A stretch of 60,052 nt of DNA from Streptomonospora mangrovi (GTDB lineage Bacteria > Actinomycetota > Actinomycetes > Streptosporangiales > Streptosporangiaceae), in the NCBI RefSeq assembly GCF_027604915.1, contig NZ_JAJAQC010000047.1, positions 1 to 60,052 of the forward strand. Direction: 5' to 3'. The notes below the pieces were generated by a model, which was not told where the DNA came from, did no database searches, and saw nothing but the letters and a program-made list of their open reading frames with translations. A program made the translations under genes and the position numbers. Shown here piece by piece: positions 9,030 through 21,157 of the stretch; position 1 is the first letter of the stretch, and every line of letters starts with the position of its first letter.

Positions 9030-9071
9030 ACTACTACCGGGTAGTAACATGGCCTTGTTACCAGTCAGTAG
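9030..9071. promoter_or_regulatory. Operator upstream of fadE5, shared with the etfD-like gene
   Basis: TACTACCGGGTAGTA at 9032-9046 is an inverted repeat. The surrounding 23 bases (9030-9052) match 17 of 23 bases upstream of the EtfD-like gene (21135-21157), including the run TAGTAACATG. A second, weaker site TTACCAGTCAGTAG lies at 9058-9071. The first box ends 63 bases before the fadE5 ATG. It is probably the binding site of a TetR-type fatty-acid regulator. Confidence 0.6.
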
Positions 9072-9115
9072 ATCGCGTCGGCACACCCACCGGCCGGATA
9101 CAGCGGAGCGCGCCC

Positions 9116-10939
9116 ATGTCGCATTACAAGAGCAATCTCCGTGACCTCGAGTTCAACCTGTTCGAGGTCTTCAAGCGCCAGGACGTGCTGGGCAGCGGCC
9201 CGTTCGAGGAGCTGGACGAGGAGACCGCCCGCACGATCCTCCACGAGGTCGAGCGGCTGGCCACCGGTGTGGTGGCGGAGTCCTTCGAGGACGCCGACCG
9301 CAACCCGCCGGTGTTCGACCCCGCCACCAGCAGCGTGCGGCTTCCCGAGAGCCTGAAGAAGTCCTACCGCGCGTACATGGACGCCGGCTGGTACAACCTT
9401 GACCTCCCGCCGGAACTCGGCGGCCTCAACGCCCCCCGCTCGCTGGTGTGGGCCGCCGCCGAACTCATCCTGGGCGCCAACCCCGCCGTGCACATGTACG
9501 CCGCCGGCCCCGGGTTCGCCAAGGTCCTCTACTCCGAGGGCAACGACGCCCAGAAGCGGTTCGCCCAGCAGGCCATCGACCGCGGCTGGGGCGCCACCAT
9601 GGTCCTCACCGAGCCCGACGCCGGCTCCGACGTCGGCGCCGGCCGCACCAAGGCGGTGGACCAGGGCGACGGCACCTGGCACATCGAGGGGGTGAAGCGG
9701 TTCATCACCTCCGCCGAGCAGGACATGACCGAGAACATCTTCCACCTGGTCCTGGCCCGCCCCGAGGGCGCCAAGCCCGGCACCAAGGGCCTCTCCCTGT
9801 TCCTGGTGCCCAAGTACCTGGTGGACGAGGACGGCAACCCCGGCGAGCGCAACGGCGTCTACGTCACCAACGTCGAGCACAAGATGGGCCTGAAGGCGTC
9901 CACCACCTGCGAGCTGACCTTCGGCGCCAAGCACCCCGCCGTGGGCTACCTCGTCGGCGACAAGCACGACGGCATCCGGCAGATGTTCCTGGTCATCGAG
10001 CACGCCCGCATGATGGTGGGCACCAAGGCCATCGCCACGCTCTCCACCGGCTACCTCAACGCCCTGGCCTACGCCAAGGAGCGCAAGCAGGGCGCCGACC
10101 TCACCAAGATGGCCGACAAGACCGCGCCGCGCGTGCCGATCACCCGCCACCCCGACGTCCGGCGCAGCCTGATGCTCCAGAAGTCCTACGCCGAGGCGCT
10201 GCGCGCGCTGGTGGTCTACGCCGCCACCCAGCAGGACGCCGTGCAGCTCGCCGAGCACGCCGGCGAGGACGACAGCGCCGTGGCCGCGCTCAACGACCTG
10301 CTGCTGCCCATCGTCAAGGGCGTGGGCTCCGAGCGCTCCTACGCGCTGCTGGCGGAGTCCCTCCAGACCCTCGGCGGCTCGGGCTACCTCCAGGACTACC
10401 CGCTGGAGCAGTACATCCGCGACGCCAAGATCGACACCCTCTACGAGGGCACCACCGCGATCCAGGCGCAGGACTTCTTCTTCCGCAAGATCGTCAAGAA
10501 CAACGGGCAGGCGTTCGGGCAGCTCGTCGGCGAGATCAAGGCGTTCGCCGCCAGCGAGGCCGGCAACGGCCGGCTCAAGGAGGAGCGCTCCGCGCTCGCC
10601 GACGCCGCCGTGCACGTCGAGAAGATGGTCGAGGCCATGGTCGGCGACGCCATGCGCTCGGCCGAGAAGACCGACGAGCTGTACAAGGTCGGCCTCAACG
10701 CCACCCGGCTGCTGATGGCCACCGGCGACCTCGTGCTGGCCTGGCTGCTCCAGCGCCAGGCCGAGATCGCCCTGGCCGCGATCGACGGCGCCGACGCCGC
10801 CGACCGCGACTTCTACGCCGGCAAGATCGCCGCCGCGCGGTTCTTCGCCGCCGAGGTCCTGCCCCGCCTGGCCGCCGACCGCGCGGTCGTGGAGAACACC
10901 ACCCTGGACCTCATGGAGCTGCCGGAGTCGGCCTTCTAG
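9116..10939 (+). CDS. fadE5: Acyl-CoA dehydrogenase, FadE5-like
   Basis: 607 residues, the length of mycobacterial FadE5 (about 611), with the same N-terminal MSHYKSN..D..FNLFEV and C-terminal ..LMELPESAF. It would oxidise acyl-CoA to enoyl-CoA with FAD, handing electrons to ETF. Visible landmarks are MVLTEPDAGSDVGAGRTKA (FAD/substrate region, about residues 160-180), the long insert typical of this subfamily (NIFHLVLARPEG), MVGTKAIATLSTGYLNA, and LYEGTTAIQAQDFFFRK with the expected catalytic base Glu444. It is monocistronic and followed by a hairpin. The shared operator links it to the EtfD-like gene. Chain-length range cannot be told from sequence. Confidence 0.93.
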   Translation: MSHYKSNLRDLEFNLFEVFKRQDVLGSGPFEELDEETARTILHEVERLATGVVAESFEDADRNPPVFDPATSSVRLPESLKKSYRAYMDAGWYNLDLPPELGGLNAPRSLVWAAAELILGANPAVHMYAAGPGFAKVLYSEGNDAQKRFAQQAIDRGWGATMVLTEPDAGSDVGAGRTKAVDQGDGTWHIEGVKRFITSAEQDMTENIFHLVLARPEGAKPGTKGLSLFLVPKYLVDEDGNPGERNGVYVTNVEHKMGLKASTTCELTFGAKHPAVGYLVGDKHDGIRQMFLVIEHARMMVGTKAIATLSTGYLNALAYAKERKQGADLTKMADKTAPRVPITRHPDVRRSLMLQKSYAEALRALVVYAATQQDAVQLAEHAGEDDSAVAALNDLLLPIVKGVGSERSYALLAESLQTLGGSGYLQDYPLEQYIRDAKIDTLYEGTTAIQAQDFFFRKIVKNNGQAFGQLVGEIKAFAASEAGNGRLKEERSALADAAVHVEKMVEAMVGDAMRSAEKTDELYKVGLNATRLLMATGDLVLAWLLQRQAEIALAAIDGADAADRDFYAGKIAAARFFAAEVLPRLAADRAVVENTTLDLMELPESAF

Positions 10940-11007
10940 CCCTTTCTCGGCTTCCTCCGCCTCCTCTCCTCCCGCCGGCCGGGCGCACGCCGCCCGGCCC
11001 CCGGAGC

Positions 11008-11034
11008 CGGGAGGGCGGCAACCCCGCCCTCCCG
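11008..11034 (+). terminator. GC-rich hairpin after fadE5
   Basis: An 11-bp perfect stem, CGGGAGGGCGG (11008-11018) with CCGCCCTCCCG (11024-11034), and a 5-base loop, 68 bases past the fadE5 stop. There is no T-run, as is usual in this GC range. It also lies before the end of the convergent AbiEii gene and may serve both. Confidence 0.5.
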
Positions 11035-20752: not shown

Positions 20753-20791
20753 GAGTACGTCCTCCGTCAAGAGTTGAGTCTTACAGGCGGA

Positions 20792-20845
20792 AGTTTGCTT
20801 CGCGGTTCGCCTGCTGTCAAATGACTTGAGTCTGCGCGACTCAAC
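20792..20845 (-). promoter_or_regulatory. dnaK promoter with HAIR operator
   Basis: On the top strand CTTGAGT (20825-20831), seven bases, ACTCAAC (20839-20845) matches the HspR-associated inverted repeat CTTGAGT-N7-ACTCAAG with one final mismatch. Reading leftward, TTGACA (20815-20820) and CAAACT (20792-20797) are 17 bases apart and form a promoter 40 bases from the dnaK ATG. An extra half-site (TTGAGTC) lies near 20774. Confidence 0.8.
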
Positions 20846-21134
20846 GTCGTGTCACCCTGTCCAACGGGAGGAACCGGGCGTTTGTTCCCCGCGGCCCGTT
20901 TTGTTTTGCGGGTGAGGGGCGGCGGAGGGCGCGGGGTGGCGATCGGCGGTACCGGGCCTCGGGGGCGAGGGCGGGGACGGGGTGCCGAGGGCGGGGGGCG
21001 GCCCGGGGGGGCGCGACCGGCCCGGCCGGGCGGTGGCCCGCCGCCGCCACCCCCGCAGCGAGGAGCGCTGGTCGCCGCCCCATCCTCTACGGTTGGTTAC
21101 CGTCGCCCCGCAACCGCGAGGCGCGGTACGGCCA
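20846..21134. other. Gene-free high-GC spacer between dnaK and the EtfD-like gene
   Basis: About 290 bases of G-rich sequence on the top strand between two divergent promoters. I see no gene, repeat or RNA in it. Confidence 0.4.
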
Positions 21135-21157
21135 CGTATTACCGACTAGTAACATGT
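21135..21157. promoter_or_regulatory. Operator upstream of the EtfD-like gene, shared with fadE5
   Basis: Contains TTACCGACTAGTAA (21139-21152), an imperfect palindrome with arms TTACC/AGTAA, followed by CATG. It matches the fadE5 upstream box at 17 of 23 positions. It ends 60 bases before the start codon, nearly the same spacing as at fadE5. Confidence 0.6.

Follow-up and report, generated by a model that had tools for sequence, protein, structure and literature searches.

Why would an acyl-CoA dehydrogenase gene and a distant gene for a membrane electron-transfer protein carry nearly the same sequence ahead of their start codons? The question is raised by a stretch of 60,052 nucleotides from Streptomonospora mangrovi (contig NZ_JAJAQC010000047.1, positions 1 to 60,052; hereafter the window), whose genome (G000) comprises 6.36 Mb in 121 contigs. 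An earlier note had singled out two boxes, one upstream of fadE5 and one upstream of an EtfD-like gene, and had proposed a regulon joining the two genes under a regulator likely to be of the TetR type. Our analysis supported this regulon and found it to be larger than proposed: fadE5, the electron-transfer flavoprotein (ETF) genes etfBA, etfD and a thiolase gene form its core, as is seen from the operator that they share, from how widely it is conserved and from the genes that it precedes. Sequence comparison suggests that the boxes are probably operators, and that the regulon they serve, conserved among actinomycetes, governs beta-oxidation together with its electron outlet; in the most likely case an orthologue of FasR reads them and represses the genes. 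To the earlier picture our results add etfBA and the thiolase gene as core members, the overlap of the operator with a putative -10 hexamer, and the usual spacing of 24-25 bp between tandem sites at fadE5.

Two genes preceded by similar sequences

The features of the window that bear on this question are the following.

9030 to 9052, plus strand: box of the earlier note upstream of fadE5, ACTACTACCGGGTAGTAACATGG, identical to 21135-21157 at 17 of 23 positions
9034 to 9047, plus strand: operator 1 of fadE5, CTACCGGGTAGTAA, a site kept before fadE5 orthologues
9045 to 9050, plus strand: TAACAT, a putative -10 hexamer with a presumed promoter role, which shares bases with the right half of operator 1
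9058 to 9071, plus strand: operator 2 of fadE5, TTACCAGTCAGTAG, 24 bp downstream of operator 1
9116 to 10939, plus strand: fadE5, acyl-CoA dehydrogenase of 607 aa, named by similarity to solved FadE5
21135 to 21157, plus strand: box of the earlier note upstream of etfD, CGTATTACCGACTAGTAACATGT, identical to 9030-9052 at 17 of 23 positions
21139 to 21152, plus strand: operator of etfD, TTACCGACTAGTAA, a site kept before etfD orthologues
21150 to 21155, plus strand: TAACAT, a putative -10 hexamer with a presumed promoter role, which shares bases with the right half of the etfD operator
21218 to 23374, plus strand: etfD, encoding a membrane Fe-S oxidoreductase of 718 aa that passes electrons from ETF to quinone, named by similarity to 9ojn

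The agreement of the two boxes proved to be as the note had given it and far above chance, and the boxes indeed end 63 and 60 bases upstream of the respective ATGs at 9116 and 21218. The second, partial site that had been reported at 9058 is also present as TTACCAGTCAGTAG, and operator 1 can be read in two overlapping registers, 9034-9047 and 9031-9044 (CTACTACCGGGTAG). The pattern YTACYNNNNRGTAR had four matches in the 60 kb window, all of them before fadE5 or etfD, while none of 100 dinucleotide shuffles contained any. The core proposed in the note, (T/C)TACC-n4-AGTAA, does occur in the boxes, but it is loose when used alone, with seven matches in the own genome vs. two for the reversed control. 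Both gene names were right: the protein encoded at 9116 matched solved FadE5 (6kse) over its whole length (E 1.4e-247), and that encoded at 21218 matched 9ojn (E 3.9e-215), deposited as 'Iron-sulfur-binding reductase', which we take to be a structure of mycobacterial EtfD. Among the public records listed, from which those of the own genome were perhaps excluded, the nearest fadE5 genes were those of Nocardiopsis trehalosi (89%) and N. halophila (86%).

Conservation of the site before orthologous genes

To examine whether the site is kept in related genomes, upstream regions were inspected in 31 genomes, namely the own genome and 30 relatives, and a site was accepted when it agreed at 10 of the 10 defined positions, or at 9 of 10 followed by SAT. 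Under this rule, a site preceded fadE5 in all 27 genomes that have the gene, etfB in 26 of 30 orthologues (the misses being G023, G024, G026, where the start is cut off, and G028), etfD in 24 of 28 (misses G019, G023, G026 and G028) and the gene for the thiolase (acetyl-CoA C-acyltransferase) in 21 of 22 (miss G028); the last count excludes L294, a second thiolase match of G030 with 44% identity. Because some loci were cut or shifted, one uniform scan alone gave 24/27 for fadE5, 25/30 for etfB and 21/28 for etfD, and the remainder was settled from the other scans (fadE5 in G018, G022 and G029; etfD in G030, G025 and G027; etfB in G022). Thus, the site is retained in related genomes before both of the genes that the earlier note had compared.

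A second set consisted of public fadE5 loci, the best 80 of 580 relatives, 13 of which are titled MAG (metagenome-assembled genome) and some of which possibly belong to the same species as the 31 genomes. A perfect site lay within 300 bp of fadE5 in 77 of these 80 loci, from genera including Nocardiopsis, Actinomadura, Streptosporangium, Nonomuraea, Streptomyces, Pseudonocardia, Saccharothrix, Nocardioides and Gordonia; the remaining three (one Nocardioides and two Embleya) had a 9/10 site. No perfect site was found in the other 565,931 bp of the 80 loci, and the reversed control was found in none of their upstream zones. Taken together, the shuffles, the reversed controls and the conservation before orthologues rule out a chance similarity of the two boxes.

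The operator and the putative promoter beneath it

The orthologues sharpened the operator consensus to the palindrome YTACY-N4-RGTAR. A and T come after the palindrome in the 118 sites collected, and the right half, GTAR, thereby continues into the hexamer TARSAT, which is of the TANNNT type and which we regard, by its sequence, as a putative -10 element; the conserved part extends 11 bases upstream of the hexamer, which corresponds to the other arm of the palindrome. The selection of these 118 logo sites favours the AT tail. The 80 public fadE5 loci were collected without that rule, and [CG]AT directly follows a site in 55 of them. T is weakly preferred at site position -12 (53/118 sites); this position is 23 bases ahead of the hexamer and may be part of a -35 element. 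At fadE5, tandem sites 23-28 bp apart occurred in 35 of the 80 public loci, with a distance of 24 bp in 17 and 25 bp in 8, and the downstream site of such pairs mostly lacks the -10 tail.

Genome-wide occurrence and membership of the regulon

The orthologue-derived motif plus the -10 extension gave the extended pattern YTACYNNNNRGTARSAT, and its reversal served as the control. In 12 genomes chosen from the 31, the extended pattern had 56 matches vs. 0 for the control (three places being counted on both strands). In 118 genomes of the class, a set that shares a few genomes with the 12, there were 309 matches vs. 9; a match was present in 96 of these genomes and a control match in 8, with at most 9 matches per genome. 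In the own genome there were 6 matches vs. 0, lying at fadE5, etfD, etfBA, the thiolase gene, a gene named as a DUF4442 member through its counterpart in G003 (thioesterase-like by look) and a gene for a thiamine-diphosphate enzyme. Beyond the two genes of the window, matches precede etfBA and the thiolase gene; two genes for AMP-binding ligases, probably acyl-CoA ligases, are reached with a shorter pattern only.

The shorter pattern had 27 places in the own genome vs. 11 for its control, and about 11 of the 27 are thus expected by chance. Its places include the two ligase genes and a divergent pair of acyltransferase and alpha/beta-hydrolase genes, and none of these sites carries the -10 tail; the other places mostly have no evident connection to lipids. 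The ligase sites, observed in the own genome only, lie 39 and 6 bases before the crude starts, and both ligase proteins fell below the NCBIfam cut-offs among the models shown. The DUF4442 gene and the two probable acyl-CoA ligase genes are candidates for further membership in the own genome. The thiamine-diphosphate enzyme gene (NCBIfam acetolactate synthase PRK05858) has a perfect extended site at its 5' end in two genomes (G000:C18:47131 and G003:C1:4745254) and adjoins a gene that is GntR-like by look.

An orthologue of FasR as the candidate regulator

TetR genes are present in the window, but the candidate regulator is encoded outside it: the only FasR match of the own genome at E <=1e-30 lies on another contig (L136, G000:C18:103658-104287). 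At least 135 TetR_N matches were counted in the own genome, with 150 of 292 candidates scored. G023, a class-level relative with a fadE5 site, has 18, and one of these genes, L161, carries a perfect site just upstream; its product is a FasR orthologue, matching 6o6p at E 3.8e-53. For the TetR-type regulator of the earlier note, sequence comparison thus offers a named candidate, the FasR orthologue.

Several observations point to this protein. First, exactly one FasR match at E <=1e-30 was found in each of 30 of the 31 genomes. In the genome without one, G028, the upstream regions of etfB, etfD and the thiolase gene all lack a site that passes the rule, and the extended pattern finds no match; this genome nevertheless keeps a desaturase-linked paralogous TetR with 63% identity to L162. 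Second, a site that passes the rule stands ahead of fasR itself in 17 of 30 genomes, and when agreement at 9/10 suffices, 19 of 29 anchored loci have one; sites such as CTACGTGCGAGTAAG or TTACCCGCGCGTAGGAT lie between -161 and -293 relative to the codons of the recognition helix. A look at 46 other TetR genes (29 own and 17 of G023) revealed sites at one, and these have a different centre. L078 (G000:C26:51622-51682) is a TetR gene with a palindrome pair of its own, TTACCGGAAGGTAA and TTACTTTCCGGTAG, in which the same half-sites surround another centre. Third, the own FasR resembles mycobacterial FasR (Rv3208; 6o6n, 6o6o, 6o6p) in its full length, in its tunnel and spine residues and in a near operator match within the crystal DNA. 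It matched 6o6p over the whole length (E 3e-53) and TetR_N at E 1.3e-18. Among the six residues of the acyl-CoA tunnel and hydrophobic spine named in the available text of PMC7382501, Leu98, Leu106, Phe138 and Leu185 are identical, while Phe123 is replaced by Tyr and Val163 by Ile; the positions were counted by hand in the alignment from Tyr77, and all six residues of the solved chain are as that text names them. The 25-mer crystallised with M. tuberculosis FasR, as printed there, holds the near match CTACGTACGGGTA, which, with one base past the end of the oligo, scores 12.5 bits in the 118-site matrix (site minimum 10.9). This score was reached by 17 of 20,000 shuffles and 6 of 20,000 random 25-mers, a likeness of sequence only.

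Other observations weigh against this assignment. The best model for the own FasR is the NCBI equivalog NF053731 (mycobacterial FasR), but its 244 bits fall below the cut-off of 330; we therefore call the protein a FasR orthologue and not a member of that equivalog. A full site would need one base more than the crystallised oligo has, and without the overrun there is no match: the best score is then -14.5 bits, which 4691 of 20,000 random 25-mers equal. Only 30 of the at least 135 own TetR genes were inspected. The joint loss of FasR and the sites rests on a single genome, G028, which moreover has the near match CGACCGGTCAGTAG (9/10, no -10 tail) 37 bases before the crude etfD start; this could be a decayed site. 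G026 has FasR and no etfD site, and G023 has FasR and neither an etfB nor an etfD site. The site before the own fasR reaches only 9/10 (CTACGTGCGAGTAAG), and 13 of the 30 fasR genes fail the rule. Mycobacterial FasR is described in passages of PMC7382501 as an activator of fas-acpS. Finally, excerpts of PMC12403877 present another protein, FdmR (Rv0238), as a long-chain acyl-CoA-responsive repressor of mycobacterial fatty-acid degradation.

Other readers and other modes of action

The last point leads to the possibility that the regulon is real and is read by another protein, that is, by an FdmR-type TetR (Rv0238 family), by the desaturase-linked FasR paralogue or by an unrecognised protein, which we consider unlikely but serious. 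The own genome encodes an FdmR homologue (C39:7976-8566, 42% identity), the recognition helices of FdmR and of the desaturase-linked paralogue resemble that of FasR, and the mycobacterium-like genome G025, with sites at fadE5, etfB and etfD, contains both FasR and FdmR (named by synteny). However, G011, G012 and G015 have sites at all four core genes, and their best FdmR match is the FasR orthologue itself, at 29-32% identity; such site-bearing genomes without an FdmR orthologue rule out FdmR as the general reader. In addition, five of seven FdmR-like genes (from the genus and from G013) have an upstream palindrome-like sequence with another centre, for example TTACTTCGAAGTA. The reason for rejecting the paralogue is its presence in G028, a genome without sites by the rule; nor was a site found before the paralogue gene in the own genome or in G023. 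Three other regulators were discarded on their published sites as given in excerpts of the respective papers: MadR, with the consensus TCTGTG-n7-GT (PMC8872791), SCO3201, with TGGCAGATTCTGCCA (PMC7324645), and MftR, with T-N2-GGCA-N5-TGCC-N2-A (PMC8728441), all of which differ from the operator here.

Two side observations concern these proteins. The FdmR-like genes L213, L214, L215, L217 and L219 are preceded by palindrome-like sequences with a YCGR-like centre (TTACTTCGAAGTA, TTACTCCGAGGTGG), and TTACTCCGGAGTAAGAT was found in mycobacterium-like genomes (G074, G086); YCGR-centred palindromes are possibly the FdmR operator, differing from the fad sites in their four central bases. FasR paralogues (L162, L142 and L238) occur in G000, G023 and G028, in G023 directly behind a fatty-acid desaturase gene, and a separate role as desaturase regulator is possible.

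It is also conceivable that FasR reads these sites as an activator, in the manner in which PMC7382501, in its available passages, has it act on mycobacterial fas-acpS. We regard this as improbable, since at the core genes, and at fasR where it has a site, the operator covers the -10 hexamer, and a dimer in that position would be expected to exclude polymerase. That the shared sequence is nothing but a strong common -10 promoter with no dedicated repressor is very hard to maintain: the TANNNT-type hexamer at the 3' end does recur in most sites, but conservation spans the second palindrome arm upstream of it, the second fadE5 site here lacks the tail (9058-9071, then ATC), and the extended pattern has so few matches in any of the 118 genomes.

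Proposed mechanism

Under repression by FasR, which is the reading that we prefer, the switch might work as follows. In the absence of fatty acid, a FasR dimer would sit on the operators and repress the genes. The right half-site covers the TARSAT hexamer, so a bound dimer would block RNA polymerase, and tandem sites 24-25 bp apart would tighten the control of fadE5. Long-chain acyl-CoA filling the FasR tunnel would release the protein from DNA, and dehydrogenase, ETF, EtfD and thiolase would be switched on together. We infer the identity of the reader, the ligand and repression over activation, the last from the position of the operator only. A single switch for the dehydrogenase and its outlet would be sensible because their genes are consecutive in electron flow. 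In agreement with such an order, passages of PMC13083937 report that butyryl-CoA-driven acidification of M. smegmatis membrane vesicles increased with added ETF and FadE5 and was lost without EtfD. Mycobacterial FasR, by the available text of PMC7382501, releases DNA upon binding acyl-CoA of C16 or longer, and the release proposed above supposes that the orthologue acts in the same way.

Relation to known systems

The nearest functional parallel is the regulon of Bacillus subtilis FadR (YsiA), with which the 2007 work of Matsuoka is reportedly associated. FadR is a TetR-type, acyl-CoA-responsive repressor of genes for acyl-CoA dehydrogenase, etfBA, thiolase, ligase and the EtfD homologue FadF, and its operator sequence differs from the operator here. 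The likeness is that here, too, one palindromic operator precedes the acyl-CoA dehydrogenase, etfBA, EtfD/FadF and thiolase genes; the difference is that the own candidate is closer to FasR than to FadR (244 bits vs. 52 bits with the FadR NCBIfam model). Excerpts of PMC13083937 likewise present FadF as an EtfD homologue associated with beta-oxidation. With FdmR, as portrayed in the available passages of PMC12403877, the likeness is that of an acyl-CoA-responsive repressor of fatty-acid degradation with a similar recognition helix; the difference is that in some site-bearing genomes nothing FdmR-like was found beyond FasR, and that palindrome-like sequences before FdmR-like genes of this genus have another centre. 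Mycobacterial FasR differs in that the excerpts of PMC7382501 make it an activator of the fas-acpS synthesis operon, while here repression of beta-oxidation and electron-transfer genes is proposed. Whether FasR was ancestrally the beta-oxidation switch of Actinomycetes, repressing acyl-CoA dehydrogenase, ETF, EtfD, thiolase and itself, with the mycobacterial role as activator of fatty-acid synthesis being derived, seems to us an evenly balanced matter.

Among the literature matches listed, none joins fadE5, etfBA and etfD in one regulon or ties FasR to beta-oxidation; Dong 2021 (FdmR) and Mondino 2013 (FasR operator) were not covered, so that part of this may be in print. A 2017 study of Streptomyces beta-oxidation states that no description yet existed of the regulatory signals and genes for triacylglycerol and fatty acid catabolism in these bacteria (PMC5539140). 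Given an operator spread across the class and a named candidate for its reader, the regulation of fatty-acid catabolism in Streptomyces becomes directly testable. The supply of acyl-CoA matters for the antibiotics of these organisms. EtfD and ETF have been studied, according to excerpts of PMC8593149 and PMC13083937, as weak points of mycobacterial beta-oxidation; if the proposed regulon is true, both would be tied to fadE5 by shared regulation and FasR would have a second role.

The dnaK locus beside etfD

In the window, etfD and dnaK stand back to back (20770-21218), as they do in several relatives (L096, L098, L101, L106 and L300); the same order is found in G028, a genome whose etfD operator does not pass the rule. 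Behind dnaK, grpE, dnaJ, a MerR-type gene (16363-16791) and clpB follow on the minus strand. The repeat CTTGAGTCTGCGCGACTCAAC lies before dnaK at 20825-20845 with one mismatch, in a search that allowed three and in which 42 of 100 shuffles also matched; we presume that this repeat is HAIR-like and that the MerR-type gene is HspR-like.

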